Part shown: positions 31,582 through 46,281 of the stretch, in pieces
Layout of the letters: each line of letters opens with the position of its first letter
How positions within the stretch are numbered: position 1 is the stretch's first letter
DNA from: a virus
Virus record (IMG/VR): IMGVR_UViG_3300044730_000625
Coordinates: 1 to 47,061 of that record
DNA length: 47,061 nt
Reading direction: 5' to 3' (one strand)
Made by a program: the position numbers and the translations under genes
Notes under the pieces: model-generated
What the model saw: only the letters and a program-made list of their open reading frames with translations
The model's database searches: none
What the model was told of the DNA's origin: nothing

Positions 31582-31588
31582 TTTTTTT

Positions 31589-31617: not shown

Positions 31618-31619
31618 TA

Positions 31620-31686: not shown

Positions 31687-31698
31687 TTTCAGTATAAC

Positions 31699-32400: not shown

Positions 32401-32426
32401 TCTGATTCAAATATGTTATTCTGAAA

Positions 32427-32535: not shown

Positions 32536-32552
32536 CTATTAAGGATTTTATC

Positions 32553-33191: not shown

Positions 33192-33837
33192 CTTAAAAAG
33201 TCTTGCCTTGGATGTAAAGGAATATCACTATCAAAATGCGATTACAGAATTAGAAATTGGTGAGCGGTTTAATAATTGTTTTTTTGGTGCAAGCGGAGAG
33301 ATCCTTACAGAATGTCAAATAAAAGCTAAAGAATGGGCTTTTCAGTTTAAAGAAGGTAACAAAGAAAAGCCTTTTTTGTTAATGGTAGGAACTTGCGGAG
33401 CTGGTAAAACGTGGGCTGGCATATCCGCACTGTTGCACTTAGCGGTTACTTTTCGTGGCTGGGGTGGAGATAAGCCCGATAATTGGCAAAGTCAAGCTTT
33501 TGGCAGGTTTCACACACACTATCAACTTGCGGAGTCTGTTTTTAGAAATGATTATGCAGAAGAAAACAGACGTAAAATGTTAGAAACTCGTGTTCTAATG
33601 CTTGATGATTTAAGGGCAGAGGGGACAGGCAGAGTGAGTGAATCCTTACTTGCGTGGATGGATGAACTTATTAACTTTAGATATAACCATAATTTAGCAA
33701 CCATTTTAACAAGCAACACAACAACCGAACAATTTAGAGCAACTTATGGTGAAAAAATTGTTGACCGAATCCAACACGCAGGCATTGTTTTAAAAGTTAA
33801 TTCTGAAAGTTTAAGAAAGGAGAAAGCTAATGCCTAA
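33181..33837 (+). CDS. DnaC-like helicase loader ATPase
   Basis: 218 residues from ATG 33181 (GGGAG seven bases upstream). Walker A GTCGAGKT is at about 70-77, Walker B VLMLDDL near 136-142, and sensor-type TILTSNTT is near 180. This is the DnaC/IstB AAA+ pattern. It overlaps the replication protein by 11 bases, and the two probably load the host replicative helicase at the origin. No phage helicase, primase or polymerase gene was seen, so the phage depends on host replication enzymes. Confidence 0.8.
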   Translation: MDFNLKSLALDVKEYHYQNAITELEIGERFNNCFFGASGEILTECQIKAKEWAFQFKEGNKEKPFLLMVGTCGAGKTWAGISALLHLAVTFRGWGGDKPDNWQSQAFGRFHTHYQLAESVFRNDYAEENRRKMLETRVLMLDDLRAEGTGRVSESLLAWMDELINFRYNHNLATILTSNTTTEQFRATYGEKIVDRIQHAGIVLKVNSESLRKEKANA

Positions 33838-34207
33838 AAAAGAAGGACTTACTCAAGAAGTCGTACATTCCAATAAAAACCTTGTGTCCACTTCAAACGG
33901 TACTTTGCAAGTGGTAAGTGTAGCACACGGCACGTTTAAAAAACTTGCTGGCAAGGCTTCTAGCGTGTCCGATGTGGGGCGTGTTGCCAACTATGTGAGT
34001 GCTTGCTTCAAGAAGAAAAACTACACGCCTAAGTGTGCCAAGTGTGAAGACGTGGGTCACTTTACTGTAGTGGGTCAAACCCCGAATGGTGAATATACCT
34101 TTGGTGTGCCTTGTGAGTGTAGCCCCATTGTTGCGAGCGTAATGCACAGTGGGGAATATGAGAAAATGACGAGAACTGTTTTAAGCAATAAGGGGCTTAC
34201 AACATGA
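33830..34207 (+). CDS. Hypothetical protein with Cys4 zinc-ribbon-like centre
   Basis: 125 residues, overlapping the loader gene by 8 bases. The middle has PKCAKCEDVGHFTVVG and then VPCECSP, a C-x2-C...C-x-C pattern like the zinc ribbon found at the N-terminus of some DnaC/DnaI loaders. Here it stands as a separate small protein next to the loader, so a role in the loading complex is possible but unproven. Confidence 0.5.
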   Translation: MPKKEGLTQEVVHSNKNLVSTSNGTLQVVSVAHGTFKKLAGKASSVSDVGRVANYVSACFKKKNYTPKCAKCEDVGHFTVVGQTPNGEYTFGVPCECSPIVASVMHSGEYEKMTRTVLSNKGLTT

Positions 34208-34554
34208 GTAAAATGACACCCGAAGATTTGCAATACCATATTGAAGAACACGCCAAGTGGTTAAAAAACAACCGAAAAGGTGAATACTTTTACCTTGAAA
34301 AAATATGGAAAAATTATAGCGGAATGTACATTTTAAACGATTTTGATTTTAGCAATGCGGATTTAAGTAGATCCTATATAGCTAATTTTACATTTCGTAA
34401 TTGTGTTTTTAAAGATACCAATTTTAGCCAAGCCACGTTCAACAATTTAACTTTTATAAACTGCGATTTTACAAATGCGATTTTGGCGGATGTGGATTTG
34501 TCTAGTTGCGAGTTTGTCTATAATATCAATTTAGTAAAAAAGGAGACTGTATAA
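34204..34554 (+). CDS. Pentapeptide-repeat protein
   Basis: 116 residues. From about 38 to 105 the sequence follows the A(D/N)LxX-type five-residue periodicity (FSNADLSRSYIANFTFRNCVF, DTNFSQATFNNLTFINCDFTNAILADVDLSSCEF), giving about 13 coils of a quadrilateral beta helix. Proteins of this shape can mimic DNA and bind gyrase (Qnr, MfpA). It overlaps both neighbours (ATGA and TAATG). A gyrase or nuclease-inhibiting role is inference only. Confidence 0.7.
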   Translation: MSKMTPEDLQYHIEEHAKWLKNNRKGEYFYLEKIWKNYSGMYILNDFDFSNADLSRSYIANFTFRNCVFKDTNFSQATFNNLTFINCDFTNAILADVDLSSCEFVYNINLVKKETV

Positions 34555-35204
34555 TGACCGTATATTTGAAAATACAGGGGCAATTATTTAATTTAAGTCT
34601 GATTCCAAACATTAGAACAGAAAAGATTTATGTAATGATAGGAGGGTTTGGGGTTTGTTGTAAATATAAGGAAGTGGCACATCAGCTATTTGAAGATATT
34701 ACATTAGCCTTGATAGTGCATCAAGAAAAAGCGTCTGTCTTTCCAGTTGATACATTGATTGAGCCGTTTACAGGTGAAGACAAATATAGCCAACAAATAA
34801 AAGCGATAGAAGCCGTAATTGAAGAAAAAGAGAAGCAGGATCTATTAAATCGTGTTTTGGATGCGGTAGAGAAAAAGGCGACAAGATGCTTTATTGTAAC
34901 CGCTAATGTAGATTATGATGCAGATTTTGCCCCAAACCCATTTCGCTTAAATGAGCGTGTTTTTGCTAAAGACAAGCAAACTGTGGAAGCTTGGCTTCGA
35001 CAAAAGGTATGTAAGAAGAAGTCTGAATATGGCAATATATTAAAGGAAGAATCTCTTAAGATAACACCAGAGCCGAAAATGGATATATTTTATTGTCACG
35101 CATATTTAGATTATGGCAGTCAAGACAAAATACGTTTTATTTATAAAGAATATGATAGATTCTTAGACGCAAAAGACTACGAAACAGAAAAGGAGACCGT
35201 GTGA
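34554..35204 (+). CDS. Hypothetical protein
   Basis: 216 residues, start overlapping the previous stop (TAATG). N-terminal ~60 residues are beta-rich (VYLKIQGQLFNLSLIPN), the middle is a Lys/Glu helix (EAVIEEKEKQDLLNRVLDAVEKK), and the C-terminal half is alpha/beta with ACRFIV-like and acidic stretches. No family recognised. It lies in the middle of a translation-coupled row from 33160 to 35943. Confidence 0.6.
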   Translation: MTVYLKIQGQLFNLSLIPNIRTEKIYVMIGGFGVCCKYKEVAHQLFEDITLALIVHQEKASVFPVDTLIEPFTGEDKYSQQIKAIEAVIEEKEKQDLLNRVLDAVEKKATRCFIVTANVDYDADFAPNPFRLNERVFAKDKQTVEAWLRQKVCKKKSEYGNILKEESLKITPEPKMDIFYCHAYLDYGSQDKIRFIYKEYDRFLDAKDYETEKETV

Positions 35205-35464
35205 TATTTATCGACCTGAAATACCAAGACACTACCGAGTTTTTAGCGATTGATGCTATAGCCCTTGTGGAAAAAACGCATGAAGATGATTTTCCCTATC
35301 AGGTTTTGCTCAAAACAGGGCATATTAAAAAGCTTAGTCAACACTTGTACGATCAGATTTACGCCGTATTACACAAGCCTTGCGACCCTTCCCCACCAGT
35401 GGGTGAACCATTGCGGGAGATTGTCGGGAATGCCCTAGAAAACACGAAAGGACGGAACGCTTAA
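35201..35464 (+). CDS. Hypothetical protein
   Basis: 87 residues starting at GTG in a GTGA overlap with the previous stop; SD AAGGAG. Small alpha/beta domain (MIFIDLKYQDTTEFLAIDAIALVEK, FPYQVLLKTGHIKKLSQHLYDQIYAVL) with a Pro-rich tail. The first part resembles the short beta-hairpin proteins often coded between phage metabolism genes. Unknown role. Confidence 0.55.
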   Translation: MIFIDLKYQDTTEFLAIDAIALVEKTHEDDFPYQVLLKTGHIKKLSQHLYDQIYAVLHKPCDPSPPVGEPLREIVGNALENTKGRNA

Positions 35465-35943
35465 TGCTTTACATATTTGATATTGACGGCGTATTAGCAG
35501 GCGTAACGCACTTGCTTTACCTTATAAAAGGCGAAAATAAGGACTATGACGCTTACTATAGCCGTATAGGTGAAGCGTTGCCTATTGCACAGGGATGTGA
35601 AGTATTAAGGGCTATAACAATGTGTGCGTGGACGCAACAGACGTACCCGCACGGTGATATTTACTTTGTCACAGGTCGTAGTGAGTTGAGCCGTGAAACA
35701 ACAATCAAGTGGCTACAGAAACACGGGGCTTGTGGTGAACGCCCTAACTTGCACATGAGAAGCAATAAGGATCGTCGCCCAGCCCACGAGGTCAAGCATG
35801 ACATTATTCAACGTATAAGCCAAGAAACTGGCGTACCGTTTAGCGATATGGTAGTGTTTGAAGACGATCCGCAATGTGCGAAAATGTATGAGTCACTCGG
35901 CTGTTATGTGTGCCACGTTAGGCACGAAAAAGCCAAAAGTTAA
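35464..35943 (+). CDS. HAD-superfamily phosphatase (PNKP/5'-nucleotidase-like)
   Basis: 159 residues. HAD motif I DIDGV (Asp6, Asp8), motif II VTGR (~69-72), a Lys in MRSNKDRRP and motif IV VFEDDPQC (~138-145) are all present. The layout is close to the 3'-phosphatase domain of phage polynucleotide kinases and to small acid phosphatases. It may trim nucleic-acid ends or nucleotides. The start overlaps the previous stop (TAATG). Confidence 0.75.
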   Translation: MLYIFDIDGVLAGVTHLLYLIKGENKDYDAYYSRIGEALPIAQGCEVLRAITMCAWTQQTYPHGDIYFVTGRSELSRETTIKWLQKHGACGERPNLHMRSNKDRRPAHEVKHDIIQRISQETGVPFSDMVVFEDDPQCAKMYESLGCYVCHVRHEKAKS

Positions 35944-36191
35944 GGAGGTTTAACCATGTTTAGTTTAAAAAAGTTTCAACTATTAACAAAAGAAGTTTAC
36001 GCTTCTTTAGATCCTGAAAAACAGTATCTATTGGTTTTATATTGGATCGATCCTGTTGATTGTCATATCATGCGATTTTGCCAAAGTGAACAAAAGTTTC
36101 TTGCCTATCGGCATGAAAAAGGTATTGAGCTTCATCCAATGGATTACGAAGGTTATTTGATCGCTGAAATTGAAAAGGAGGTTTAACCATG
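35941..36191 (+). repeat. Duplicated SD leader AAGGAGGTTTAACCATG
   Basis: The same 17-base leader including ATG occurs at 35942-35958 and 36175-36191, before two successive genes. It is one of several leader families copied within this phage. Confidence 0.7.
35956..36186 (+). CDS. Hypothetical protein
   Basis: 76 residues with SD AAGGAGG. Alpha/beta pattern (LLVLYWIDPVDCHIMRFCQSEQKF, YEGYLIAEIEKEV). The leader is identical to that of the next gene. No family is recognised and no catalytic motif is visible. Confidence 0.55.
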   Translation: MFSLKKFQLLTKEVYASLDPEKQYLLVLYWIDPVDCHIMRFCQSEQKFLAYRHEKGIELHPMDYEGYLIAEIEKEV

Positions 36192-36377
36192 TATTTAAAC
36201 GATTTAGAAGCACTTTCAAAAGCACAAAACAACAAGCTTTTAGTTTGTGGTGCTGAAATTAAGTGTGTCTTGCAACACAAAAAAACAGGCACAATTTCTC
36301 TTGAAATTGAAGATGCCTCAAGTTTTAGCATTGACGAGAAAGAATACACCGTTTTGTGGGAGGCTGAAAATGTCTAG
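36189..36377 (+). CDS. Hypothetical protein
   Basis: 62 residues with SD AAAGGAGG. Starts MYLNDLEALSKAQNNKLLV; beta-rich core (GAEIKCVLQHKKTGTISLEIE) and an acidic end. It overlaps the methyltransferase start by 8 bases, so the two are probably translated together. Unknown function. Confidence 0.55.
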   Translation: MYLNDLEALSKAQNNKLLVCGAEIKCVLQHKKTGTISLEIEDASSFSIDEKEYTVLWEAENV

Positions 36378-36999
36378 CACATTGCGAGGTTACGACCGCC
36401 ACAAGTCGGATTACTATGTAACGCCTGACTGGATTATTGACGAACTGTTTGATGCAATCCCTGAATTGTTTGAAGAAATGGACGGACGCATTGCGTTAGA
36501 CCCTTGTGCAGGCGGTGGCATGGTCAACGGCACACAAGCCTTTGGTATGCCATACCCTGAAGCGTTAAAGCGTCAAGGGTGGGACACGATTCACACAATG
36601 GATATTAGAGAAGATTCACTAGCCGATATTAAAACGGATTTTCTACAGTGGAACAATTCCGACAATCTCGATTTTGACTTAATTATAACGAATCCACCGT
36701 TTGCTATTGCTGAAGAGATTACACGAAAAGCATTAAGTCTAGTGGATTCTGAAAGTGGCAAAGTCATTATGCTACAACGGCTCAACTGGCTAGGCAGTGC
36801 CTCAAGGGATGCTTTCTTTACTGAATACCCTCCCTCCCTTATTGTCTTTCACGCTAAACGCCCCTCGTTTGGCGGTACAAGTTCAACCGATTCTATTGAG
36901 TACGCCCACTTCATTTGGGACAATAGCGACAAGTCAGGATGTACTCAATTTGTGCGGGTGCGGGCTGATTATAGCAAAGAACAGGGCAAACTATTTTAA
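36370..36999 (+). CDS. DNA N6-adenine methyltransferase
   Basis: 209 residues from ATG 36370 (GGGAGG eight bases upstream). SAM-binding IALDPCAGGG is at 41-50 and catalytic TNPPF at 107-111, followed by KVIMLQRLNWLGSASRDAFF. The order (motif I first, NPPF second) differs from the methyltransferase at 24789. This short form is known as a phage solitary adenine methyltransferase. The N-terminal RGYDRHKSDYYVTPDWI is typical. It is followed by the partner protein at 37011. Confidence 0.75.
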   Translation: MSSTLRGYDRHKSDYYVTPDWIIDELFDAIPELFEEMDGRIALDPCAGGGMVNGTQAFGMPYPEALKRQGWDTIHTMDIREDSLADIKTDFLQWNNSDNLDFDLIITNPPFAIAEEITRKALSLVDSESGKVIMLQRLNWLGSASRDAFFTEYPPSLIVFHAKRPSFGGTSSTDSIEYAHFIWDNSDKSGCTQFVRVRADYSKEQGKLF

Positions 37000-37010
37000 G
37001 GAGATTAAAA

Positions 37011-37523
37011 ATGACTAAACAAGCAGAAAGACCTTTAACAGTAAGCTTTCAAGATGACTCATCTTGCACGTTTGATAGCAACGACTTTGTGGAGTTCGAG
37101 ATATTGACGCACGATTTACCTATGGGTGAGATTGTCTTCAAAGGATCTCCCTTTACAGACGCAGGCTTCACCGAACTAGGGCGGTGCGTGTTCGACTACT
37201 GCGATCACGGCTTGTATGTGTACCAAGAGCTAGCGAATATGCTCTATGAAGCACAGCATCCGTGGTTGGACTTAACCGACGCTTTAGAAAAAGGATGCCT
37301 TGAAATCTACAAAGATTATGAAACGATAGGCATCTTGGGCGGTGATTACGATTACAACATTCATTCATGTGAAGAAAATAAGTTGCCGATTGTGTGGACT
37401 ACGTTCAAAGATAAAGTTGAATGCCTAGCAATGGATAATGTGCTGGCGTTTAGACCCCTTGCTAGTGACATACAAGCATGGGTGCATTGTGCAAGTGTGA
37501 AAGTATGGCAACCGCCCGAATAG
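37011..37523 (+). CDS. Methyltransferase-partner protein, long paralogue
   Basis: 170 residues, SD AAGGAG. Residues ~17-85 (CTFDSNDFVEFEI, GSPFTDAGFTELGR, FDYCDHGL, YEAQHP) are about two-thirds identical to the small protein at 24545. The C-terminal half (ALEKGCLEIYKDYETIGILGGDYDYN and so on) is absent from that copy. It stands 11 bases after an unrelated methyltransferase. Recurrence of this protein next to both methyltransferases suggests a shared accessory role, but no known family is recognised. Confidence 0.7.
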   Translation: MTKQAERPLTVSFQDDSSCTFDSNDFVEFEILTHDLPMGEIVFKGSPFTDAGFTELGRCVFDYCDHGLYVYQELANMLYEAQHPWLDLTDALEKGCLEIYKDYETIGILGGDYDYNIHSCEENKLPIVWTTFKDKVECLAMDNVLAFRPLASDIQAWVHCASVKVWQPPE

Positions 37524-37525
37524 CA

Positions 37526-37559
37526 AAAAATATCCCCTAGTTTTTACGCTAGGGGATAC
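37526..37559 (-). terminator. Intrinsic terminator, minus strand (second)
   Basis: TATCCCCTAG (37532-37541), 8-base loop, CTAGGGGATA (37550-37559). On the minus strand a T6 tract follows. A 10-bp perfect stem. On the plus strand it lacks a T-tract but may still protect the end of the 37011 mRNA. Confidence 0.75.
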
Positions 37560-37583
37560 CCCGATTTAAAGAAAGGAGGGTCT

Positions 37584-37703
37584 ATGAGTCCCTATCGCTA
37601 CTTTAGCATAGGTTTCTATATTGTGCAAGTAGCCATTAAAAAAGCCCTAGAGTTTCCAACTAGGGCGCCATACCGACAAGGTAAGGTGGTACACTTATTT
37701 TAG
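37584..37703 (+). CDS. Possible 39-aa small protein
   Basis: ATG 37584 preceded by a strong AAAGGAGGG at four bases; protein begins MSPYRYFSIGFYIVQVAIKK. It runs across the minus-strand terminator at 37638-37666, so its coding may be incidental. The strong SD is the main support. One mildly hydrophobic segment and a basic C-terminus. Confidence 0.4.
   Translation: MSPYRYFSIGFYIVQVAIKKALEFPTRAPYRQGKVVHLF
37638..37666 (-). terminator. Intrinsic terminator, minus strand (first)
   Basis: GCCCTAG (37644-37650), 9-base loop, CTAGGGC (37660-37666), followed on the minus strand by TTTTTTAA. It ends the candidate small RNA that starts near 37798 and any read-through from the RusA operon. Confidence 0.85.
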
Positions 37704-37798
37704 TAGATTCTATAGAACATTTCAACCCTTTAAAGCAGATAAACGCCCCTTAATAGGAGCGGTTACTATACTTCTTTTACCGTTGGTAAATAAGCCTC
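37638..37798 (-). ncRNA. Candidate ~160-nt minus-strand structured RNA
   Basis: An extended -10 promoter, TGCTATAAT (plus 37805-37813), lies at the end of the 30-aa gene. No minus gene with an SD follows before the perfect terminator at 37638. The expected RNA folds into TTTACC-AAC-GGTAAA, a CGCTCC/GGGGCG stem, a TTCTATAGAA palindrome and the terminator stem. It could instead be just the 3' UTR of the RusA operon. Confidence 0.4.
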
Positions 37799-37805
37799 AT
37801 TACTA

Positions 37806-37898
37806 TTATAGCATACACCAAGTATAATTTCCCAATTTTCTTATATAGGCGTTTTTGAAGTATCTTTTTTTGTACCATGTTTTAAAAGCTTTAAGCAT
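37806..37898 (-). CDS. 30-aa basic small protein coupled to RusA
   Basis: Starts MLKAFKTWYKKRYFKN. Its ATG overlaps the RusA stop in a TAATG junction, and GGAGG lies seven bases upstream inside RusA. Strongly basic (nine Lys/Arg in 30) with several aromatic residues. The junction and SD support expression. Function unknown. Confidence 0.5.
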   Translation of the reverse strand: MLKAFKTWYKKRYFKNAYIRKLGNYTWCML

Positions 37899-38356
37899 TA
37901 CATAACCTCCAATAAAGCATCCATAGCCCATTGTGGGGCTTCAAATGGTGTATCGGTAACAAACTGAATAATCGTGTATTCTGTGTCAATATCCGCCCAT
38001 ACTTTACGTCCTTGTGATGAAACAGCCCTTGCATCGTTTGCGTTTAAATGTGGATAAATAGAATCTAAAGTTGGCTTTACAGGATTGTCCGAATCCATAA
38101 AGTTTAGACTCATTTCATTGTACTTGCTGGATTTAGTACACACGGACTTGGAAAAAACCACGATCTCAACGCTATGAGGTTTTTTCACTAAATCAGACAA
38201 GCTTTTTCTCTTATAAGCAGGCATACTCAAAATGTACTCTTCAACACGTCGCTTAAAAGCCACATACTTGGGGGTATTATAACGTCGTCCATTGTAAGTG
38301 CTTTTCTGCGTGTGATTGGCACTAGGTGGAATGAAAGGCAACACTAACTGAATCAT
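37898..38356 (-). CDS. RusA-type Holliday junction resolvase
   Basis: 152 residues. The N-terminus LPFIPPSANHTQKSTYNGRRYNTPKYVAFK and the acidic motif MDSDNPVKPTLD (Asp88, Asp90) with LNANDARAV (Asp108) match RusA, a dimeric junction-cutting nuclease. It would clear branched DNA before packaging or work with the Sak4-like recombinase. It is coded in a minus-strand operon with two unknown genes, overlapping by four bases. Confidence 0.75.
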   Translation of the reverse strand: MIQLVLPFIPPSANHTQKSTYNGRRYNTPKYVAFKRRVEEYILSMPAYKRKSLSDLVKKPHSVEIVVFSKSVCTKSSKYNEMSLNFMDSDNPVKPTLDSIYPHLNANDARAVSSQGRKVWADIDTEYTIIQFVTDTPFEAPQWAMDALLEVM

Positions 38357-38676
38357 TTAACACCTACTTTCTTCTTGTAGTTTTCAAAATCTGCTTCAAG
38401 TTCTCCACGCACAATATCAAGCAAATATAAAAAGATCTGAAAATCATTGTACTTTGTAAGTCGCATAAATACAAAAAAGTTTTTAGTCGGGAGTTGTTTT
38501 AACATACTCAAATACATCTTAGACTTTTCTTGATCCTTCATGCTTATTGTTGGAAGTGTATTTTTTTCAAAAGTATCAATTAAAAAATCCCTAAAATCTT
38601 GGCGAGCTTTTTCACCAATAGCATTGACAATAAAACTAGAAAACAAAAAATATAGAAAAAATGGAAACTTAATCAT
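38353..38676 (-). CDS. Hypothetical protein with hydrophobic N-terminus
   Basis: 107 residues. The first ~20 residues (KFPFFLYFLFSSFIVNAIG) form a signal- or anchor-like segment, with no lipobox. The rest is helical and charged. It overlaps both neighbours (ATGA-type junctions). Unknown role; possibly membrane-associated. Confidence 0.55.
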   Translation of the reverse strand: MIKFPFFLYFLFSSFIVNAIGEKARQDFRDFLIDTFEKNTLPTISMKDQEKSKMYLSMLKQLPTKNFFVFMRLTKYNDFQIFLYLLDIVRGELEADFENYKKKVGVK

Positions 38677-39025
38677 GGTTTAATTCCTTTTGAACAAATA
38701 AAACATACGGTTCGTATGTTTCTTTATAATATGGATTTTCTTCAATCTGCTTTATTTTTGCAGGATTGTTTTTTAAATACTCAATAACATCATCAACTAC
38801 AATGTTGTCGATATGTACCTCTAAACGCTCATCACTTAGTGGATTGTCAAATAGAAAATAAACGTGACTTGCTCTTTCAATTGTGCTTTGTTTTGTGATT
38901 GGGTTAAATAAGCGGTTGTATCCATTGCAAATAAAAGACCTAAACCCAAAAGGTCTCACTAAATAGTCAAGGTTAAATAATAAAGCAATTTCTAACCATT
39001 TTATTTTTTTTACTTTGTTAATCAT
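38669..39025 (-). CDS. Hypothetical protein
   Basis: 118 residues, AAAGGAG before the ATG. First gene of the RusA operon. WLEIALLFNLDYLVRPFGFRSFICNGYNRLF and a C-terminal acidic/aromatic part (EENPYYKETYEPYVLFVQ). No family recognised. The leader carries a GC hairpin (39048-39075). Confidence 0.55.
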   Translation of the reverse strand: MINKVKKIKWLEIALLFNLDYLVRPFGFRSFICNGYNRLFNPITKQSTIERASHVYFLFDNPLSDERLEVHIDNIVVDDVIEYLKNNPAKIKQIEENPYYKETYEPYVLFVQKELNHD

Positions 39026-39047
39026 ACTGTTACTCCTTTAAAAGAAC

Positions 39048-39075
39048 GCACCCAATCGCTAAACAGGGTGCGTCC
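39048..39075 (-). promoter_or_regulatory. Leader hairpin of the RusA operon
   Basis: ACGCACCC (39048-39055) pairs perfectly with GGGTGCGT (39068-39075) across a 12-base loop. On the minus strand TTCTTTT follows and then the SD of the first gene. It could be an attenuator or a stabilising stem. A TATACT -10 (plus 39092-39097, minus direction) lies upstream. Confidence 0.5.
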
Positions 39076-39165
39076 AACTCTTCAAATGTTTAGCTGGTAA
39101 TAGTATAACACACTTTTTGTTTTAAATGTAAATGTAAAGTTTTGTAAAATACTCCATTTTGTGGA

Positions 39166-39194
39166 TTGTTTTTATTTAAAATGTGTTGTATATT
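39166..39194 (+). promoter_or_regulatory. Plus-strand promoter of the recombination operon
   Basis: TTGTTT (39166-39171), 17 bases, TATATT (39189-39194), 24 bases before the ATG at 39219. It is divergent from the RusA operon promoter. The 193-base gap between the two operons holds only these signals and the leader hairpin. Confidence 0.6.
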
Positions 39195-39218
39195 AAAAAA
39201 GTCAAAGGAGTAAACCAA

Positions 39219-39362
39219 ATGTATTTAACCCCCGAACAAAAACTTGCTTTGGAAAACGTGATTGCCACGCTTGAAGAAGTGAGTGAAAGTTTATCAGAAT
39301 TGTCTAGTATGCAAGAACAGTTATTAAATGGAGGATTAAATGAAAATAGCCACGTATTTTAG
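39219..39362 (+). CDS. Small helical hypothetical protein
   Basis: 47 residues, AAAGGAG before the ATG with the leader GGAGTAAACCAAATG that recurs at 41707. Starts MYLTPEQKLALENVIATLEE; long acidic helix with heptad-like Leu. It overlaps the next gene by 23 bases, whose SD lies in its last codons. Unknown function. Confidence 0.55.
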   Translation: MYLTPEQKLALENVIATLEEVSESLSELSSMQEQLLNGGLNENSHVF

Positions 39363-39702
39363 CAAAGAAGAAGAGGAGTTTGTAAACGATTATGTGTTTC
39401 AGTACCGTGGGCGAAGCTTTAAAGGCTGGGCAGCCACAAAACTTGCTACATGGCTTGCAGGCGATGACTTTGAACAGCTTCAACTGGAAGACTTACGTTT
39501 TATGGATGAACCAAGTAACCTGATCCGTGCAAACCAAGAAAAATACGTCACCAAGTATGCGGATATTTCCCCAGAAGAACACAAGCTTTTTGTTGAAAAG
39601 GTTAAAGCCTTAAAGCAAGGCACTTTCCGTGAATATAAAATCAGCTTGTTTCTTATTTTACGTTCCTTAATTTTAAAGGAGGTGGGCTATAAAGACTCTT
39701 AG
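39340..39702 (+). CDS. Hypothetical protein whose 3' end is duplicated with the tandem RNA
   Basis: 120 residues, GGAGG before ATG. Helical and charged (TYFSKEEEEFVNDYVFQYRGRSFKGWAATKLATWL, PEEHKLFVEKVKALKQG). Its last codons (KEVGYKDS and stop) lie inside the 5' flank of the first tandem RNA unit, and the second unit carries a copy of them (KEVGYKEI and stop) without the rest of the gene. No family recognised. The association raises the possibility that protein and RNA work together. Confidence 0.6.
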   Translation: MKIATYFSKEEEEFVNDYVFQYRGRSFKGWAATKLATWLAGDDFEQLQLEDLRFMDEPSNLIRANQEKYVTKYADISPEEHKLFVEKVKALKQGTFREYKISLFLILRSLILKEVGYKDS

Positions 39703-39900
39703 AAGGCAAACTAAAGGCGATTGTTATTGTTTTTTACTATATGCGACGAATCATAATGACCCTATGAATTGTAACTCCGTAAGCAAATACCGTGTTAGTT
39801 ATGCGTGAAATTATAGATTATTGTAATGGATTTTACATTTAAAAAACTATAAGTAGAAACACGTCGGACTGTTTCTTGTGATCGCCTTTAATTTGTATTC
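39674..39900 (+). ncRNA. Tandem structured RNA, unit 1
   Basis: The non-coding core is closed by a 20-base stem: 39702-39721 pairs with 39881-39900 with two mismatches and one G-U pair. A 3' hairpin AGAAACA/TGTTTCT (39855-39861, 39870-39876) stands four bases before the 3' arm. Its loop CGTCG (39862-39866) can pair with CGACG (39744-39748), which would make a pseudoknot. There is no ORF with an SD inside. The flanks are shared with unit 2, but the core is not. Confidence 0.65.
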
Positions 39901-40140
39901 AAAAGGAGGTAGGCTATAAAGAGATTTAGAAAGCAAACTAAAGGTGTTGTATTTTACAGGTGTTTGTCTGTCGACGACATGAAAATGGATGGCACAACGG
40001 ATCATACGGGTTTTTAAGATCCTTCACATCAATAGACTTAAAAATGCTTGGCGTATGCGTGGCATGACCACAATTTAATCTGTATTAAAAATGTAAAAAC
40101 TGATGACTTTTACTGACAACATCTTTAATTTGTATTCAAA
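39901..40140 (+). ncRNA. Tandem structured RNA, unit 2
   Basis: Closing stem 39929-39950 with 40116-40137 (22 bases, two mismatches, two G-U pairs). The inner half differs from unit 1 (AAAGGTGTTGT/ACAACATCTTT against AAAGGCGAT/ATCGCCTTT), so pairing is kept by compensating changes. The 3' hairpin GTAAAA/TTTTAC (40093-40098, 40108-40113) stands two bases before the 3' arm. Further local stems are GGATC/GATCC and ATGC-GTG-GCAT. It is followed directly by the SD of the next small gene. Confidence 0.65.
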
Positions 40141-40151
40141 AGGAGATAAAA

Positions 40152-40250
40152 ATGGATGAAAACGAAGCGATCTACTGGTTCAACGGTAGCGGTGAAGATG
40201 AAGAAACGTACAATGATATTTCAGAAAGGGATTTACGAGGATGTTTATAA
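40152..40250 (+). CDS. 32-aa acidic small protein
   Basis: Starts MDENEAIYWFNGSGEDEE, ending RGCL. AAAAGGAG lies seven bases before the ATG, and the 3' end overlaps the Sak4-like gene by ten bases, so it probably couples translation. Eleven of 32 residues are acidic. Function unknown; a DNA-mimic or leader peptide is possible. Confidence 0.5.
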   Translation: MDENEAIYWFNGSGEDEETYNDISERDLRGCL

Positions 40251-41161
40251 AAAAAGCACAACGCCAAAAAGCAAAGCTTCGTATTGGTGTATTTGGTGCA
40301 AGTGGTAGCGGTAAAACCACATCTGCTTTATACCTCGCTTATGGTTTAGTAAAAGACTGGTCAAAGATTTGTGTAATTGACACCGAAAATCAATCGGCGG
40401 ATCTATACGCAAACCATACACCTGTTTTAAGTGGTGAAAAATGCGAAACGCTTGGAGATTATAACACGCTTACTTTGGAAGCTCCTTACACCCCTGAACG
40501 CTATGTTCAAGCAATTAAGCTTTGCGTTGACGCAGGAATAGAGGTTGTCGTTATTGATTCAATATCTCACGAATGGGAAGGCAAAGGCGGATGTCTTGAA
40601 ATTAAAGAGCAATTAGACTTAGGCGGTGGAAACTCTTATACAAATTGGGGGAAAGTTACGCCACGTCATAACGCTTTTATTCAAGCCATGCTTACGGCTC
40701 CGATTCATATCGTGGCAACTTCACGAGTAAAAACGGATGTTGCTTTAACCACGAACGAAAAAGGCAAGGCAGTACCTCAAAAAGTCGGTCTTAAATGTGT
40801 TACAAGAGACGGCTTTGATTATGAAATGACGACTTGCTTTGATGTTGAAGCAGGTAGTCACCTTGCTAAAGTATCTAAAGATAGAACAGGCATTTTTGAA
40901 GGTCGCCCTGAATGGGTTATTTCAAGTAATGACGGCGACTTATTGGCTCAATGGGCTGATAGTGGCTCTGAAGTGATTGAACGCCCCTTGTCAAAAGATG
41001 AGTTTTTAAATGAAGTAGTTAAGTATTCAAGAGAAACCAAAACTTCTTATCAAGACAGTGTTAAATTGTTTTTGATTGAGGGCGAAGCGGATCTTGGTCA
41101 AGTCCCTGAATCGGAACGCCGTAGCCGATTGAAGGAAGTTAGAACGGCACAAGGAGTCTAA
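40241..41161 (+). CDS. Sak4-like RecA-fold single-strand annealing/recombination ATPase
   Basis: 306 residues. Walker A FGASGSGKTTS is at ~18-28, Walker B VVVIDSISHEWEG is near 104-116, followed by the YTNWGKVTPRHNAFIQAML segment typical of phage AAA_24/Sak4 proteins. The C-terminal ~70 residues are helical. Sak4 proteins promote strand annealing with a partner SSB, which is coded next. SD CGAGG before the ATG. Confidence 0.8.
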   Translation: MFIKKAQRQKAKLRIGVFGASGSGKTTSALYLAYGLVKDWSKICVIDTENQSADLYANHTPVLSGEKCETLGDYNTLTLEAPYTPERYVQAIKLCVDAGIEVVVIDSISHEWEGKGGCLEIKEQLDLGGGNSYTNWGKVTPRHNAFIQAMLTAPIHIVATSRVKTDVALTTNEKGKAVPQKVGLKCVTRDGFDYEMTTCFDVEAGSHLAKVSKDRTGIFEGRPEWVISSNDGDLLAQWADSGSEVIERPLSKDEFLNEVVKYSRETKTSYQDSVKLFLIEGEADLGQVPESERRSRLKEVRTAQGV

Positions 41162-41163
41162 TT

Positions 41164-41664
41164 ATGTGGAATGATTTAAACACTGCATTTGAAACAGCAG
41201 AACTTGAAGTAAAATTGCCTATAGGTGAATATGTTGGAGCAATTATTGGTTGCTCTTTCACGGACGCTAAACAAGGCACAATGCGTTGGTTTAATTTTGA
41301 TGTTTTAATCCAAGTCGCAGAACAGAAAGAACTAATTGGCACGATTGCTAAAGAAAGCCTTTTGATTGGATCTGAAAAAAACGGTTTTATGGAACCAAAC
41401 AACATTAGCCTAGCGATTGTAAAGACGATTGCAAAGGGTGCGTTTGGCGATATTACAGGAATGGACTTTTCGACTATTCTTGCCACGTTGCCTACAAGCG
41501 TTGTAGACACCACGATTTCATTTTCAATCAAAGAAAACTTTGTAGAGAAGAAAAATCAAACGTACCGAAACTTTTACTTAAACTCTGCTAGTCGTGCAGA
41601 TTTTGCAACGCCCAAGCAAGCACCGCAAAGCGTTCAAGACGCTTACGGTGACCTCCCCTTCTAG
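41164..41664 (+). CDS. Phage single-stranded DNA-binding protein
   Basis: 166 residues starting two bases after the Sak4-like stop. OB-like beta strands (YVGAIIGCSFTDAKQGTMRWFNFDVLIQ) and an acidic tip ending GDLPF, which resembles the DDIPF tip of bacterial SSB that recruits partner proteins. The DUF669-type layout and the Sak4 neighbour support SSB. A strong terminator follows. Confidence 0.75.
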   Translation: MWNDLNTAFETAELEVKLPIGEYVGAIIGCSFTDAKQGTMRWFNFDVLIQVAEQKELIGTIAKESLLIGSEKNGFMEPNNISLAIVKTIAKGAFGDITGMDFSTILATLPTSVVDTTISFSIKENFVEKKNQTYRNFYLNSASRADFATPKQAPQSVQDAYGDLPF

Positions 41665-41667
41665 CTG

Positions 41668-41707
41668 TCACACTTGTGGGGGTGTATTCCCACCCCCTGT
41701 TTTTTTA
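41668..41707 (+). terminator. Intrinsic terminator after the SSB gene
   Basis: GGGGGTG and CACCCCC enclose a short loop (TATTCC) and are followed by TGTTTTTTT. It ends the Sak4-SSB transcript or lowers expression of the downstream genes. The T-tract leads straight into the next SD (AAGGAG). Confidence 0.85.
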
Positions 41708-41720
41708 AGGAGTAAACCAA

Positions 41721-42062
41721 ATGCCATTAACAATTAAAAGCATAAAAGGATACATTTATCACAACTTGATTAAAAAATCATGGGATGACGATAGAAAGAT
41801 GCTTACTTATTCGGTTTGCTATCAAAAACTGGCAGATGCCTTAAATGAACATTTTAAACCTGGTGTGTTATTTAGTTCTAAGATGTTTAAAAAAAATACG
41901 CTTTCTGAATATAAAGCCTTGTCATTTTGTTACTCGCTTTTGCAAGATCCCAATTTTCAAAAAGAACTTAAAAAAGATGTGAAAGAAGCTTTAGAAGAAT
42001 ACGAGAATACTGACAACATTTACTATATAAACCCAAGTGGAGATGATATATATGGAGGGTAA
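41721..42062 (+). CDS. Hypothetical protein
   Basis: 113 residues with leader AAGGAGTAAACCAAATG. Lys-rich N-terminus (LTIKSIKGYIYHNLIKKSWDDDRKM), helical middle and acidic/Tyr C-terminus (ENTDNIYYINPSGDDIYGG). No family recognised. Just downstream of the SSB terminator. Confidence 0.6.
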   Translation: MPLTIKSIKGYIYHNLIKKSWDDDRKMLTYSVCYQKLADALNEHFKPGVLFSSKMFKKNTLSEYKALSFCYSLLQDPNFQKELKKDVKEALEEYENTDNIYYINPSGDDIYGG

Positions 42063-42067
42063 ACCAA

Positions 42068-42448
42068 ATGCCTAACTTAACCGATTTATTTGCCAAGTGG
42101 GAACAAGCCAAAAGCCAGTGGGTTAGAACTGCTGACGACTTAGCACTTTCCACGCAAGAACACGCTGAAAGCAAGCGGTGGCTTGCAGAGATTGAAGCCG
42201 ACATCATGCTTGCGATGACCGAACAAGACATCCCTAACGCACAATTTAAAGACATGGTTTTTAAGCGTGGCAATAAAGAAGTTAAAGTCGTGGATGAACC
42301 ACTTGCTCGCTTGTTGATTGCAGAACGTGGCATTCAGGATGCGTTTATGAAAATTACACAAAAGGAGCTAAAGGCTCAAGGGCTTGATCGTGAATGTATT
42401 TCGATTGAACTTCACCCTAGCCTGAAAGTGGAGGTGACCGATGCTTAA
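42068..42448 (+). CDS. Hypothetical helical protein
   Basis: 126 residues, leader GGAGGGTAAACCAAATG. N-terminal coiled-coil-like helix (FAKWEQAKSQWVRTADDLALSTQEHAESKRWLAEIEADIM) followed by a beta region (FKRGNKEVKVVD) and C-terminal ELHPSLKVEV. A recombination or nuclease-inhibitor role is conceivable from its place next to Sak4/SSB, but no motif shows it. Confidence 0.55.
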   Translation: MPNLTDLFAKWEQAKSQWVRTADDLALSTQEHAESKRWLAEIEADIMLAMTEQDIPNAQFKDMVFKRGNKEVKVVDEPLARLLIAERGIQDAFMKITQKELKAQGLDRECISIELHPSLKVEVTDA

Positions 42449-42596
42449 AGCTACGTTTAACGTAAAAGGAAAGAACCTAGAACAGATTGTAGACCGCTTG
42501 GAGGAATACTTGATTGTGCTAAGGGGTGAAAAGTTTAGAGAAAACTTTTCTGATAGTCCCAATGTTGGTTTTTACTTAGAAGAAGGAGACGACTAA
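42441..42596 (+). CDS. Small hypothetical protein
   Basis: 51 residues starting MLKATFNVKGKNLEQIVDRL and ending FYLEEGDD. GGAGG lies before the ATG inside the end of the previous gene (8-base overlap); the next ATG follows the stop directly. Acidic alpha/beta. Unknown function. Confidence 0.6.
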   Translation: MLKATFNVKGKNLEQIVDRLEEYLIVLRGEKFRENFSDSPNVGFYLEEGDD

Positions 42597-42992
42597 ATGA
42601 CATTTGATATTGAGCAGATCAGAGGAACACATCTTGAATCTGTATTAAAAATGTTTCACAATTATTGTGTGTTACAAGGTAAACCATTAACAGAAGTGCT
42701 TGAATTGGAAGAGACTAAATTACTTATCGAAAAAGTGGACGTAAAAAAAACAACCTTTAGAGGTCTTGTATATTTTATTGCAAGATTGGCAAACATGAAA
42801 AGAAGTATAGGCGCTCCTCGTTTTTCTAAAGCAAAGAAATACACAAAAGACATTAAAGAAAAATACAAAGAGCTTATGTTGAGTGGTATGAAATCGGAAT
42901 CAGCAATAGCTACTTTAATGCTTGAATATCAGGCTTGTTATAGCACTATTAAAAATTGCTTGAAAAGGGAAGAAAAGGAGTTAAGCGAATGA
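42597..42992 (+). CDS. Hypothetical helical protein with HTH-like C-terminus
   Basis: 131 residues, SD AGAAGGAG in the previous gene. All helical. The C-terminal part (YKELMLSGMKSESAIATLMLEYQACYSTIKNCLKREE) has helix-turn-helix-like spacing, so DNA binding is possible. It is the best candidate in the window for a small regulator, but this is a weak inference. Confidence 0.55.
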   Translation: MTFDIEQIRGTHLESVLKMFHNYCVLQGKPLTEVLELEETKLLIEKVDVKKTTFRGLVYFIARLANMKRSIGAPRFSKAKKYTKDIKEKYKELMLSGMKSESAIATLMLEYQACYSTIKNCLKREEKELSE

Positions 42993-43327
42993 CTCAAAAC
43001 ACACACCGAGTGTTACTAATTATAATGGCTTACCTTTTGTGGGCGTTTCCATTATCTGCCCCATTTGGTTTGTATGCCCTTATGCTTGGCAAAAAGAACA
43101 TTGCTAAAAATATGACGACAATTACTTTGCTATGCCCAGTTCTTTTGATTGTGTCCTTACCCTTTGCTGGTGAAGCTGGCTCCAATGGTGGACTTGCCAC
43201 TTTCGCCATTATCGCTAACGGCTTGCTGATCCTTTGCAACTTGTTTCTTTGGGCTAGCCATGCTTTTTACATTCCCAGTTGGGTGGATCAAGAACTTCAA
43301 AAAGAAGGAGTACCGAAAGATGACTAA
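42989..43327 (+). CDS. Multi-pass small membrane protein
   Basis: 112 residues from ATG 42989 (AAGGAG upstream, ATGA overlap with the previous stop). Three hydrophobic segments (about 8-28, 37-55, 67-88) and a charged C-terminus. A superinfection-exclusion or holin-like role is possible. No family recognised. Confidence 0.6.
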   Translation: MTQNTHRVLLIIMAYLLWAFPLSAPFGLYALMLGKKNIAKNMTTITLLCPVLLIVSLPFAGEAGSNGGLATFAIIANGLLILCNLFLWASHAFYIPSWVDQELQKEGVPKDD

Positions 43328-43502
43328 CGAACAGTTGAAACGACTATATCCTATCGTGTGTTTAATTGCCGTTTTCATGTCTTTCATGTTTTTTTACACT
43401 ATCTATCAATCAGAACATGAGTCAATGATGAGACTAAAGACAGAGTATGAGAAGGTATTGATATTATACAAGACAAGACTAGAGGATTGCAGAAATGACT
43501 AA
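43320..43502 (+). CDS. Small membrane protein with coiled-coil tail
   Basis: 60 residues from ATG 43320 (GAAGGAG upstream), overlapping the previous gene by 8 bases. One membrane segment (about 10-28) followed by a charged helix (HESMMRLKTEYEKVLILYKTRLEDC). This is the layout of an inner-membrane spanin, though very short. Confidence 0.55.
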   Translation: MTNEQLKRLYPIVCLIAVFMSFMFFYTIYQSEHESMMRLKTEYEKVLILYKTRLEDCRND

Positions 43503-43983
43503 CGAAATGATGAGACCGTGTACCTTGTGGGGTCAAACGTTTGATGCGATGCGTGTTAAGATACTTGAAATTAACATGGCTACTTCAAGTGAGCCTTTTC
43601 AAGTGTGGGTTGAGATTTGGGAAGAAAACCCTGACGGAGCAACCCCAATTACGCATAAAAAGTGTTTTTCAGAACATGAGATTATTATTGCGAATAGAGA
43701 AGCCATAACCACCATAGCCGACGCTCTCAACGCCCCTGTGCTGGCGACTGAAGAGGTGCTGGCAGGGTTGCCGAAGGATGCGAAGGTTTACACCTTTGAC
43801 GAGAAAACAGGCGACGCTCTTAGGTGTACGTTTGATAATGAGTTTGGGTGGGTGTGTCGAACAGGTCACTTTAACGAAGCCTTAAAGCTTCGTAGACCTT
43901 ATCGAATCTTTGCTATCAACGACTCCAAAACAGCCGACTACCTCCACCAGTTCACGCTTGAAGGCGTAAGGAGGGTGGGATGA
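43495..43983 (+). CDS. Hypothetical protein
   Basis: 162 residues, overlapping the previous gene by 8 bases. Alpha/beta (VWVEIWEENPDGATPITHKKCFS, LAGLPKDAKVYTFDEKTGDALRC). The end YLHQFTLEG is coded by bases repeated at 44563-44583 in the small ORF at 44542, so the 3' end has been duplicated. No family recognised. Confidence 0.6.
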   Translation: MTNEMMRPCTLWGQTFDAMRVKILEINMATSSEPFQVWVEIWEENPDGATPITHKKCFSEHEIIIANREAITTIADALNAPVLATEEVLAGLPKDAKVYTFDEKTGDALRCTFDNEFGWVCRTGHFNEALKLRRPYRIFAINDSKTADYLHQFTLEGVRRVG

Positions 43984-44549
43984 GTAATTCAAAAGAAATA
44001 AAGGCTATTCAAGAACTTCTAGCTAATCACGCTAGGGGCTTAGGATTGATAATAAATCGTAATTGTGATGATGTACGTTATGAAAACACCTATGATAAAG
44101 CACAAGTTGAAGACTTGGGGGTTCTTTTTGAAATATACAAAATCTTGGAGCAGATAGATGAGCCTATTGAAAATGTTGTTTTTATCAAGGGCAAAACTTT
44201 AAGAACTGGATTCACTCTTAAAGGTTGGGAAAACACTGTTTTCTTTGGGGTTGATATAACTTTCAGCTCCGAAAGAGTCAAGGTAAACCTAGAAGAACTC
44301 AACTTTGCACTATTGAAAAAGGGTGCATTGAAGAACGATATAGACAAAGACCCATATCCTAAAAGCAAGAAAGAATACTTTAGGGATAATCTTTCAGAGG
44401 ACTATATGCTTTTTAAGAAGTATAAATCTGATTTGAAATCATGGTTTTTAGATTGTTTGCTTGAAGAAAAAAAGAAACGTCTAAAAGAAGAGATTTTAAA
44501 AAAGAATGTGGAGTTAGCTAAGCTAGAAAAGGAAACGAAAGATGTTTAA
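43980..44549 (+). CDS. Hypothetical protein
   Basis: 189 residues, ATGA overlap with the previous stop and GGAGGG upstream. Alpha/beta N-terminal domain and a long Lys/Glu coiled coil at the C-terminus (about 150-189). No family recognised. Confidence 0.6.
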   Translation: MSNSKEIKAIQELLANHARGLGLIINRNCDDVRYENTYDKAQVEDLGVLFEIYKILEQIDEPIENVVFIKGKTLRTGFTLKGWENTVFFGVDITFSSERVKVNLEELNFALLKKGALKNDIDKDPYPKSKKEYFRDNLSEDYMLFKKYKSDLKSWFLDCLLEEKKKRLKEEILKKNVELAKLEKETKDV

Positions 44550-44613
44550 TTACCCATGCCTCCGCCAGTTCACGCTTGAAGGCAAACTAAATAAACAAAA
44601 GGAGATGAACTAA
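44542..44613 (+). CDS. 23-aa coupling peptide or remnant of a duplicated gene end
   Basis: Starts MFNYPCLRQFTLEGKLNKQ. ATG lies inside the end of the previous gene, and its TAA overlaps the next ATG (TAATG). LRQFTLEG matches the end of the 162-aa protein at 43495, so it is probably a leftover from a recombination event that now couples translation. Confidence 0.45.
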   Translation: MFNYPCLRQFTLEGKLNKQKEMN

Positions 44614-45110
44614 TGAATTACGATCAACTTATGGGATTTTTACTTGGAAACGCTGCGATGCTTGGTGTGGTGTCTGTTGTTTACACACTCAGCAAAGCGA
44701 AAAACGTTATTTTCCACAATCCTGAATCCAAAACGCATCCATTGCCATTAAACATTCCTAAGCCCGATATTATGGTCGTGGCTCAATTATACGCAGACGG
44801 TTCCGCTACGATTGACGCTAAGGACTATATGGGTACACCATACGCCCCCACTATGCAAAAATTCGCTACACACAGAACGCTGAACGCTCTGAACTTCTTT
44901 TTTGATACAAGTACACCCGAAGTAGAGAAAGAAGCCGTCAGAGAAGCGTCAACGACGTTGCAGGGCGTTGAGGTGGAAGTGCCACAGTCGCCAGTGGATG
45001 AAGGGCTAGATGTTGTGTTTCCTGATACACCAGTAAGTAAACAAACCAAGCTTGAAGACATTAAGGCAGGCATTCAACCAAAAGGAGTAGCCGATGCTGA
45101 AACATCCTAA
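44613..45110 (+). CDS. Membrane-anchored hypothetical protein
   Basis: 165 residues, AAAGGAG upstream. N-terminal membrane segment (about 6-25, MGFLLGNAAMLGVVSVVYTL), then a Pro-containing linker and a soluble domain with an acidic Ser/Pro/Val-rich tail (EVEVPQSPVDEGLDVVFPDTPVS). No family recognised. Confidence 0.6.
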   Translation: MNYDQLMGFLLGNAAMLGVVSVVYTLSKAKNVIFHNPESKTHPLPLNIPKPDIMVVAQLYADGSATIDAKDYMGTPYAPTMQKFATHRTLNALNFFFDTSTPEVEKEAVREASTTLQGVEVEVPQSPVDEGLDVVFPDTPVSKQTKLEDIKAGIQPKGVADAETS

Positions 45111-45363
45111 TTTGCTCTATATCCGCAGTTTCTATCGCATTGAAGACTTGCAAAATTACGTCAAACACACGTTCGGCAAGGTTGTGTTCTTTCACCCCAT
45201 TAAACCATGCCATTACAAGGTGTTTGAAGATAGGATGCAAGGTTCAGTGCAACTTGGAACCACGCAGGACTTGTACGTTATCTCACAATCTGATACTAAC
45301 GGCGAAAAGTGTTTTATATTGTACCGTATTGTCGATATAGACCCAGTGCGATTTAAGTATTAA
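45094..45363 (+). CDS. Hypothetical protein
   Basis: 89 residues, AAAGGAG upstream, overlapping the previous gene by 17 bases. Aromatic-rich alpha/beta (NLLYIRSFYRIEDLQNYVKHTFGKVVFFHP). The stop lies at the base of a hairpin (45364-45383) that recurs after 46192. Confidence 0.55.
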   Translation: MLKHPNLLYIRSFYRIEDLQNYVKHTFGKVVFFHPIKPCHYKVFEDRMQGSVQLGTTQDLYVISQSDTNGEKCFILYRIVDIDPVRFKY

Positions 45364-45386
45364 ATATCCTCCATTTGGAGGATGCC
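45361..45386 (+). repeat. Repeated post-stop hairpin, copy 1
   Basis: TAAATATCCTCCATTTGGAGGATGCC: ATCCTCCA pairs with TGGAGGAT. The second copy after 46190 differs at two stem or loop positions but keeps the pairing. Both begin with the stop codon of a gene. Confidence 0.65.
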
Positions 45387-45428
45387 CAAAGTTCTAAAAC
45401 TTACTAAAGTAAACAAAAGGAATAAAAA

Positions 45429-45572
45429 ATGAATCCGATTCTTGCGTATTTAATTAACTATTTCTTTGGCTACGTTTTAATGACAAGTTGCCAAAATGTA
45501 ATTTGGCAAGATTTTTCTATACTTTTAGAACTTATTTTTTTAGTGTTTGTTTATCCATTTGAAAGGAAATAA
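45429..45572 (+). CDS. Small two-helix membrane protein
   Basis: 47 residues starting MNPILAYLINYFFGYVLMT, with AAAAGGAA upstream. Two hydrophobic segments (about 3-20 and 30-43) and a short basic end (FERK). The bases 45387-45428 before it hold only its SD. Unknown function. Confidence 0.5.
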   Translation: MNPILAYLINYFFGYVLMTSCQNVIWQDFSILLELIFLVFVYPFERK

Positions 45573-45574
45573 AA

Positions 45575-46192
45575 ATGTTTTTTAATACTCAACCCAGTCA
45601 ACCTAGTGAACCTAGTCACGTTAATGCTGACGTAATTGTTTCAAGTGCATATTTTATCTTGCCGTGTACTCGCAACGGAGTAAAGAGTTTTTATATTCAA
45701 GAAGTTCAAAAACGCACATTTAAAAAAGAAGTGCGTGAGCTTAATCAAGTTTTTTATGGAGAAAAGTTTTTTACAAAAAATGGAGATCCAATTAAACCTG
45801 CTGAAATGAAAGACTATAAACATTATTGCGATTTTAGTGATTATTATTCATTAGGGATTGTTGATTGGATTTTTGACACCAAAGAGGATGCTGAATTAGC
45901 TTTGCAAAAAATAGATGAACATAAAGTTTATTTTGATATGATTAACATATTTTATAATTGTATGATTAACCAACAAGTGGATCACTATCAAACAATTTAT
46001 CGTGATTTTATTCCATATTTTCAAGGGTTCGCAGAAATTAAAAAAAAGATATTAAAACTAAAAATAGATAAAAATAATTTTTATAATTGTTTTGAAGATT
46101 TAACAAAAGAATGGCAAATTTGGATTAAATCAGAAATTGTATTGATAGATAAAGACAAAAAAGCTAATCCCGAAAAATATAGAACTTGGTAA
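45575..46192 (+). CDS. Hypothetical protein
   Basis: 205 residues, GAAAGGAAA upstream. Alpha/beta N-terminal part (NADVIVSSAYFILPCTRNGVKSFYIQEVQKRTFK) and helical C-terminal part rich in Lys, Tyr and Phe. Higher AT content than neighbouring genes. No family recognised. Its stop starts the second post-stop hairpin. Confidence 0.6.
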   Translation: MFFNTQPSQPSEPSHVNADVIVSSAYFILPCTRNGVKSFYIQEVQKRTFKKEVRELNQVFYGEKFFTKNGDPIKPAEMKDYKHYCDFSDYYSLGIVDWIFDTKEDAELALQKIDEHKVYFDMINIFYNCMINQQVDHYQTIYRDFIPYFQGFAEIKKKILKLKIDKNNFYNCFEDLTKEWQIWIKSEIVLIDKDKKANPEKYRTW

Positions 46193-46215
46193 ATATCCTC
46201 TATATGGAGGATGCC
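46190..46215 (+). repeat. Repeated post-stop hairpin, copy 2
   Basis: TAAATATCCTCTATATGGAGGATGCC. ATCCTCTA pairs with TATGGAGGAT using one G-U pair. Compared with copy 1 the changes keep the stem. It lies between the 205-aa gene and the promoter at 46211. Confidence 0.65.
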
Positions 46216-46239
46216 AGCAAGCAAACCCCTGTGTATAAT
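46211..46239 (+). promoter_or_regulatory. Plus-strand promoter before the last gene cluster
   Basis: ATGCCA (46211-46216), 17 bases, TATAAT (46234-46239). Start expected near 46246. A leader hairpin AAGCCT-AAGTG-AGGCTT (46248-46264) follows, then AAAGGAAA and ATG 46282. It would drive the genes from 46282 across the contig join into the lysis cluster at 402-2157. Confidence 0.65.
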
Positions 46240-46281
46240 GATTTTATAAGCCTAAGTGAGGCTTAAAGAAAGGAAACCCCT

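Follow-up and report, generated by a model that had tools for sequence, protein, structure and literature searches.

Do the two neighbouring units behind a 120-aa gene of an uncultured phage form an RNA that is kept for its structure, and what could such an RNA do? The window, by which we mean the whole stretch of 47,061 nt analysed (IMG/VR record IMGVR_UViG_3300044730_000625), had been predicted to carry two tandem non-coding units with shared flanks and unlike cores. The tandem of unit 1 (u1) and unit 2 (u2) was found to be real, with 85% identity between the 5′ flanks over 48 nt and 96% identity between the 3′ flanks over 26 nt. The second 5′ flank is a copy of the end of the 120-aa gene, so u2 does repeat the last codons of that gene, and the 3′ flank of u1 stands before this copy. 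The units are joined at AAAGGAG, a sequence that occurs both where the 120-aa gene ends and before the small downstream ORF. We infer, as the simplest reading, that the tandem arose by recombination at AAAGGAG between phages carrying u1-type and u2-type alleles. The element is known from three instances in two genomes: u1, u2 and one unit in a relative, L003. The features are collected in the table. Another sequence, L009, continues from the right end of the window (46190-47061) straight into its left end (1-136), which makes the window near complete and the genome either circular or circularly permuted.

Table. Positions of the two units, their helices and the neighbouring genes in the window
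Feature	Position	Strand	Remarks
Upstream gene P0001, 120 aa	39340..39702	+	last codons form the 5′ flank of u1
AAAGGAGG, Shine-Dalgarno-like, start of u1 region	39675..39682	+	6 nt before ATA at 39689
Possible AUA-start small ORF, u1	39689..39808	+	39 aa
Possible AUA-start small ORF, u2	39916..40017	+	33 aa
u1	39706..39900	+	195 nt
u2	39933..40137	+	205 nt; same type as L003:4367-4571
5′ flank, copy 1	39670..39717	+	repeat family D2
5′ flank, copy 2	39897..39944	+	repeat family D2; repeats end of 120-aa gene
3′ flank, copy 1	39886..39911	+	repeat family D1; runs straight into second 5′ flank at AAAAGGAGG
3′ flank, copy 2	40123..40148	+	repeat family D1; ends in Shine-Dalgarno sequence of next ORF
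P1 of u1, 5′ arm	39706..39724	+	pairs with 39878..39896
P1 of u1, 3′ arm	39878..39896	+	pairs with 39706..39724
P1 of u2, 5′ arm	39933..39950	+	pairs with 40116..40133
P1 of u2, 3′ arm	40116..40133	+	pairs with 39933..39950
P2 of u2, 5′ strand (tentative)	39955..39961	+	pairs with 40078-40084
P2 of u2, 3′ strand (tentative)	40078..40084	+	pairs with 39955-39961
P3 of u1, 5′ strand	39746..39757	+	ACG-AAU-CAUAAU
P3 of u1, 3′ strand	39798..39806	+	GUUAUG-CGU
P3 of u2, 5′ strand	39997..40008	+	ACG-GAU-CAUACG
P3 of u2, 3′ strand	40052..40060	+	CGUAUG-CGU
P4 (3′ hairpin) of u1	39855..39876	+	
P4 (3′ hairpin) of u2	40093..40113	+	stem the same in L003, loop altered
Small downstream ORF, 32 aa	40152..40250	+	end overlaps start of recombinase gene
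Sak4-like recombinase gene	40241..41161	+	PHROG 1366 and 124, Pfam AAA_24; ERF-family gene instead in L003

Each unit is closed by a stem, P1, of 18-19 bp, and the compensating changes that had been claimed for its inner half were recovered. In an ungapped register the 19 positions of P1 in u1 comprise 14 Watson-Crick pairs, 4 G-U pairs and 1 mismatch, and the 18 positions in u2 comprise 15, 2 and 1. Past the conserved outer arms the stem extends inwards by 8 pairs in u1 and 7 pairs in u2, an extension that was matched by shuffled cores with a frequency of 0.001 (u1) and 0.0016 (u2). The comparable inner pairs, given as u1/u2, are G-C/G-U, C-G/U-A, G-C/G-C, A-U/U-A, U-A/U-A, U-G/G-C and G-U/U-A; four of the seven are altered on both sides, and pairing is retained in all seven. 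When positions 28001-47061 were scanned for helices with spans of up to 260 nt, both P1 stems tied for second place with a score of 40, and the best scores in three shuffles were 35, 32 and 43. A single P1 stem is thus not extraordinary for a 19-kb stretch; what is extraordinary is to have two in the same register. The predicted ensemble gave P1 a probability near 1 in u1, u2 and L003. On the plus strand the non-Watson-Crick positions of P1 in u1 are 4 G-U pairs and 1 mismatch, and on the minus strand 1 G-U pair and 4 mismatches, which favours an RNA of the operon strand.

The folding energy of the whole units was ordinary, with z-scores of -0.14 and -0.11 against shuffled sequence. The evidence is therefore the pairing retained between divergent copies and not stability, and whole-unit folding energy alone would have missed the element. 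For u2 and the unit of L003 together, the consensus energy of the whole unit had a z-score of -3.0 against column-shuffled alignments (2 of 300), whereas that of the core without P1 was not significant (z -0.5).

The relative (IMGVR_UViG_3300034272_001457, L003) encodes the 120-aa gene product at 92% identity. Directly behind that gene it carries a single unit of the u2 type (4367-4571, 205 nt), in the equivalent place between counterparts of the same two genes. P1 and P4 had both been proposed before L003 was known, and for these two stems it provides an independent test. A relative without the closing stem had been named as the outcome that would speak against the prediction; between u2 and L003 none of the 34 stem positions of P1 differs. 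In P4 the stem is unchanged (0/12), whereas 6 of the 9 loop positions have changed (P 0.0015), and in the tip of P3 changes were found at 22 of 43 positions. Taken over all four helices, 1 of 78 stem positions has changed as compared to 39 of 127 other positions, a contrast that is inflated and partly circular because P2 and P3 were chosen partly for their invariant columns. With the stems of P1 and P4 retained and the hairpin tips varying in this single relative, the claim of selection for structure gained support.

The cores had been described as lacking any evident identity. They are largely divergent, but a colinear motif and a bulged helix, P3, are common to u1, u2 and L003. The helix has the form ACG-RAU-CAUA/UAUG-CGU with RAU as a 3-nt bulge, and in direct comparison its motif pair reads ACGAATCATA ... 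TATGCGTG in u1 and ACGGATCATA ... TATGCGTG in u2 and L003. From u2 to u1 its two innermost pairs change on both sides (C-G to A-U and G-C to U-G), and RNAalifold recovered P3 from the three stretches alone, with one double-changed pair. Stems held through two-sided changes were accordingly found in the inner halves of P1 and in P3, with few events in the three sequences. None of 2000 shuffles equalled the P3 motif score of u1, a figure that is optimistic as the motif was defined after u1 had been seen; corrected for this, we roughly estimate the chance of the u1 match at a few in a thousand. For the pattern ATCATA-N(38-60)-TATGCG, 0.09 occurrences are expected in the window, and both units contain it. 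A third match, on the minus strand at 35099-35156, lies inside a coding gene and was set aside. The tip enclosed by P3 measures 40 nt in u1 and 43 nt in each of the other two units. When a model was made from u2 and L003, it detected u1 at 38.9 bits, chiefly via the flanks. Judged by the shared colinear P3 motifs, u1 and u2 are most likely deeply diverged homologues rather than two unrelated inserts. The 3′ hairpin was also predicted for both units, and P4 is indeed present in each, but such a hairpin arises in about 20% of shuffled cores.

Further members were sought in several collections. Pattern scans of viral contigs returned the L003 contig only, with the gap of two of the scans too narrow for the 178-nt core of L003. 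DNA similarity searches of phage and plasmid collections gave no real match, and bacterial genomes scanned with either the 120-aa protein or the terminase likewise gave none. The stretches read from 32 terminase relatives and from L060 do not contain the genes that flank the RNA, and its absence from them is therefore uninformative. Among named phages, the relatives of the window terminase are all below 60% identity. Several matches were rejected as chance: a match of model R1 at 42614-42647 and a flank-like match at 42634 fall within a coding gene, P3-like pattern matches in L031 and L032 lie in coding genes, and the end of a decayed gene accounts for a flank-like match at 44577. The stretch 44556-44612 is a gene-end remnant (RQFTLEGKLN); it is similar to the C-termini of two proteins, the 43495-43983 protein and a related one in L060 (14020-14047).

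The 120-aa gene ends in TAG (39700-39702), and P1 of u1 starts 3 nt past this stop codon; the last P1 pair of u2 lies 5 nt upstream of AAAAGGAG, the Shine-Dalgarno sequence of the small ORF. With P1 formed, this Shine-Dalgarno sequence and its AUG were predicted to be mostly unpaired, with values of 0.71 and 0.63 in the window and 0.72 and 0.79 in L003. No terminator-like sites were detected between 38800 and 41400, and promoter-like sites in that stretch were fewer than in shuffles, so an independent small-RNA gene is unsupported. Searches of Pfam, NCBIfam and PADLOC with the 120-aa protein returned nothing; its only PHROG match was non-significant (E 0.058), and its AlphaFold model (pLDDT 57) was too weak for use. 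Upstream of the minus-strand gene 38669-39025, in a divergent promoter region, a perfect 7-bp hairpin (CGCACCC...GGGTGCG) was seen at 39048-39073.

The original prediction had suggested a link to a Sak4 operon. Such a link is not specific, as L003 carries the same RNA ahead of an ERF-family gene: what follows the small ORF is ERF-family in L003 and Sak4-like in the window. The recombinase, Sak4 or ERF, is thus swapped between the two phages, whereas the 120-aa gene, the element and the small ORF remain together. The exchanged stretch spans 40197-41604 in the window and 4676-5593 in L003, and homology resumes at PKQAPQSVQDAYGDLPF, the C-terminal end of the following protein. That protein looks like a single-strand binding protein; the one after ERF in L003 has only its C-terminal end in common with the 41164-41664 protein of the window. 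The recombinase product of the window matched PHROG 1366 at 278 bits and the Sak4-like PHROG 124 at E 9e-7. Taken together, the two matches suggest that the former, a family of unknown function, is Sak4-like as well. The 36247-36999 protein is 90% identical in L029, where the terminase is only 55% identical, and is absent from the closer relative L003; on these identities the gene is a recently moved one. The stretches 37011-37523 and about 24603-24753 encode one protein family in two places, as is also the case in L012, L013, L016, L028 and L029, and one of the two places is on the opposite strand, past the terminase region.

Our best explanation for these observations, held tentatively and at somewhat less than an even chance, is that u1 and u2 are versions of one structured, cis-acting intercistronic element of an early mRNA, for which we infer the following function. 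The spacer that the element fills runs from the 120-aa stop codon to the ribosome-binding site of the small ORF heading the recombination genes. By forming P1 the element would fold out this 200-nt spacer, so that this stop codon and that ribosome-binding site come to lie close together, and the folded-out spacer would then be unable to mask that site. The closed domain may set the translation level of the recombination genes or the processing of the mRNA, and a protein could perhaps bind at the bulge of P3. The features observed are a long P1, the inner bulged P3, a hairpin beside the 3′ arm, conserved stems against variable tips, and the position between the two genes. A fold-out role alone leaves the retention of 200 nt and of a conserved bulged helix unexplained.

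Some of these features could also suit a structured small RNA that acts in trans, cut from the operon transcript at P1 and binding a protein or an RNA of the phage or the host, with the variable tips following changing targets. The closed 5′-3′ stem, the compact unit with its defined ends, the variable tips on a conserved frame and the two divergent versions side by side would all agree with it. We consider it unlikely, since neither a promoter nor a terminator of its own was found between 38800 and 41400, the unit ends exactly between the stop codon and the next ribosome-binding site, and no relative was found in Rfam. Complementarity to the rest of the window was moreover not clearly above shuffles in both u2 and L003. 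One 18-nt stretch of u2 is identical to other sequence of the window on one strand; it is absent from L003. A transcription antiterminator read by RNA polymerase, like the put RNA of HK022, is a more doubtful proposal and one we regard as quite improbable. The position near the start of the early operon, after its first small genes, would fit, and put elements are structured and protein-independent, with related copies in one phage (PMC9378689). However, the unit has three times the size of put and is built on a closing stem, there is no Rfam match, and no terminator lies downstream in the scanned stretch.

The units could also be read as protein-coding, each holding a small gene with an AUA start behind the extended Shine-Dalgarno sequence AAAGGAGG, which precedes ATA by 6 nt in all three units. 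In L003 the frame encodes 49 aa, and the frames have a common N-terminus, IK-(T/R)-(L/F)-R-(R/K)-QTKG. The chance probability is 0.04 for an open frame of 39 codons and 0.03 for one of 49, the P3 motif strands are in frame in all three units, the length differences between u1 and u2 before and between these strands are 24 and 3 nt, and AUA starts aided by an extended Shine-Dalgarno sequence have been documented in Staphylococcus aureus (PMC13009471). Against this, the changes between u2 and L003 show no bias by codon position (2/2/3, as compared to 10/3/27 in the 120-aa gene), although seven changes give low power. The frame of u2 meets an early stop with more stops after it, an ATG, GTG or TTG start is lacking, a homologue was not found, and the 3′ arm of P1 is left unexplained. 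On balance a coding role appears distinctly unlikely. Least credible, with a very small chance of being right, is a feature of the DNA itself, an inverted-repeat cassette or recombination hot spot whose structure acts as DNA at a module border. The element does lie at the border of the exchanged Sak4/ERF modules, and the tandem resembles unequal recombination at AAAGGAG. But the departures from Watson-Crick pairing are mostly G-U pairs on the plus strand and mostly mismatches on the minus strand, hairpin stems away from the ends are retained although their loops vary, and the position is equal in both phages rather than scattered.

Returning to the intercistronic mRNA domain, it is possible, though short of probable, that the units represent a new family of structured phage RNA, defined by a long closing stem, a helix with the 3-nt RAU bulge and fast-changing tips, and held at a fixed position of the early operon while core and recombinase are exchanged. 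If confirmed, it would add a structured RNA family for a group of uncultured phages and provide a clear case of secondary structure held through sequence replacement. It would also mark a position at which phages swap single-strand annealing recombinases yet retain an RNA domain in the mRNA.

The suggestion that the units belong to no described RNA class was borne out by the Rfam searches. Rfam 15 gave no match at gathering score in the whole window, and with E up to 5 the region 39600-40250 gave only a chance match at E 4.9; a search for tRNA and tmRNA found none. The type III toxin-antitoxin RNAs (ToxI, CptI) resemble the locus in having tandem RNA units beside a small protein gene, and an RNA antitoxin acting with the 120-aa protein had been proposed. 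Their repeats are short pseudoknots of 36-45 nt, near-identical and located upstream of an endoribonuclease toxin (PMC4627078), whereas u1 and u2 have 195 and 205 nt, divergent cores and a place downstream of the protein gene. The 120-aa protein showed no match to a ToxN/CptN/TenpN-type toxin in Pfam, NCBIfam or PADLOC. With no toxin family match, and with gene order and unit length unlike those of type III loci, the antitoxin proposal is unsupported, and nothing points to the decoy RNA that was also suggested. The RNA of the phage-encoded AbiF system is likewise a structured non-coding RNA borne by a phage beside a protein gene (PMC12373285). The units u1 and u2 differ in giving no Rfam match and in having a neighbouring protein with no match in PADLOC.

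The HK022 put RNA is comparable as a structured RNA without a protein gene in an early phage operon, present in more than one divergent copy per genome. It is about 70 nt long with two stem-loops, and its copies lie behind two promoters (PMC9378689), whereas u1 and u2 are arranged in tandem as domains of about 200 nt with a closing stem of 18-19 bp. The intercistronic structures of translational coupling (PMC12548453) are alike in that, on one mRNA, structured RNA separates a stop codon from the ribosome-binding site that follows. Coupling by termination and reinitiation is reported to require overlaps or very short spacers (PMC10666635). In contrast, u1 and u2 place a conserved domain of 200 nt in the spacer, with the next site predicted to be accessible.
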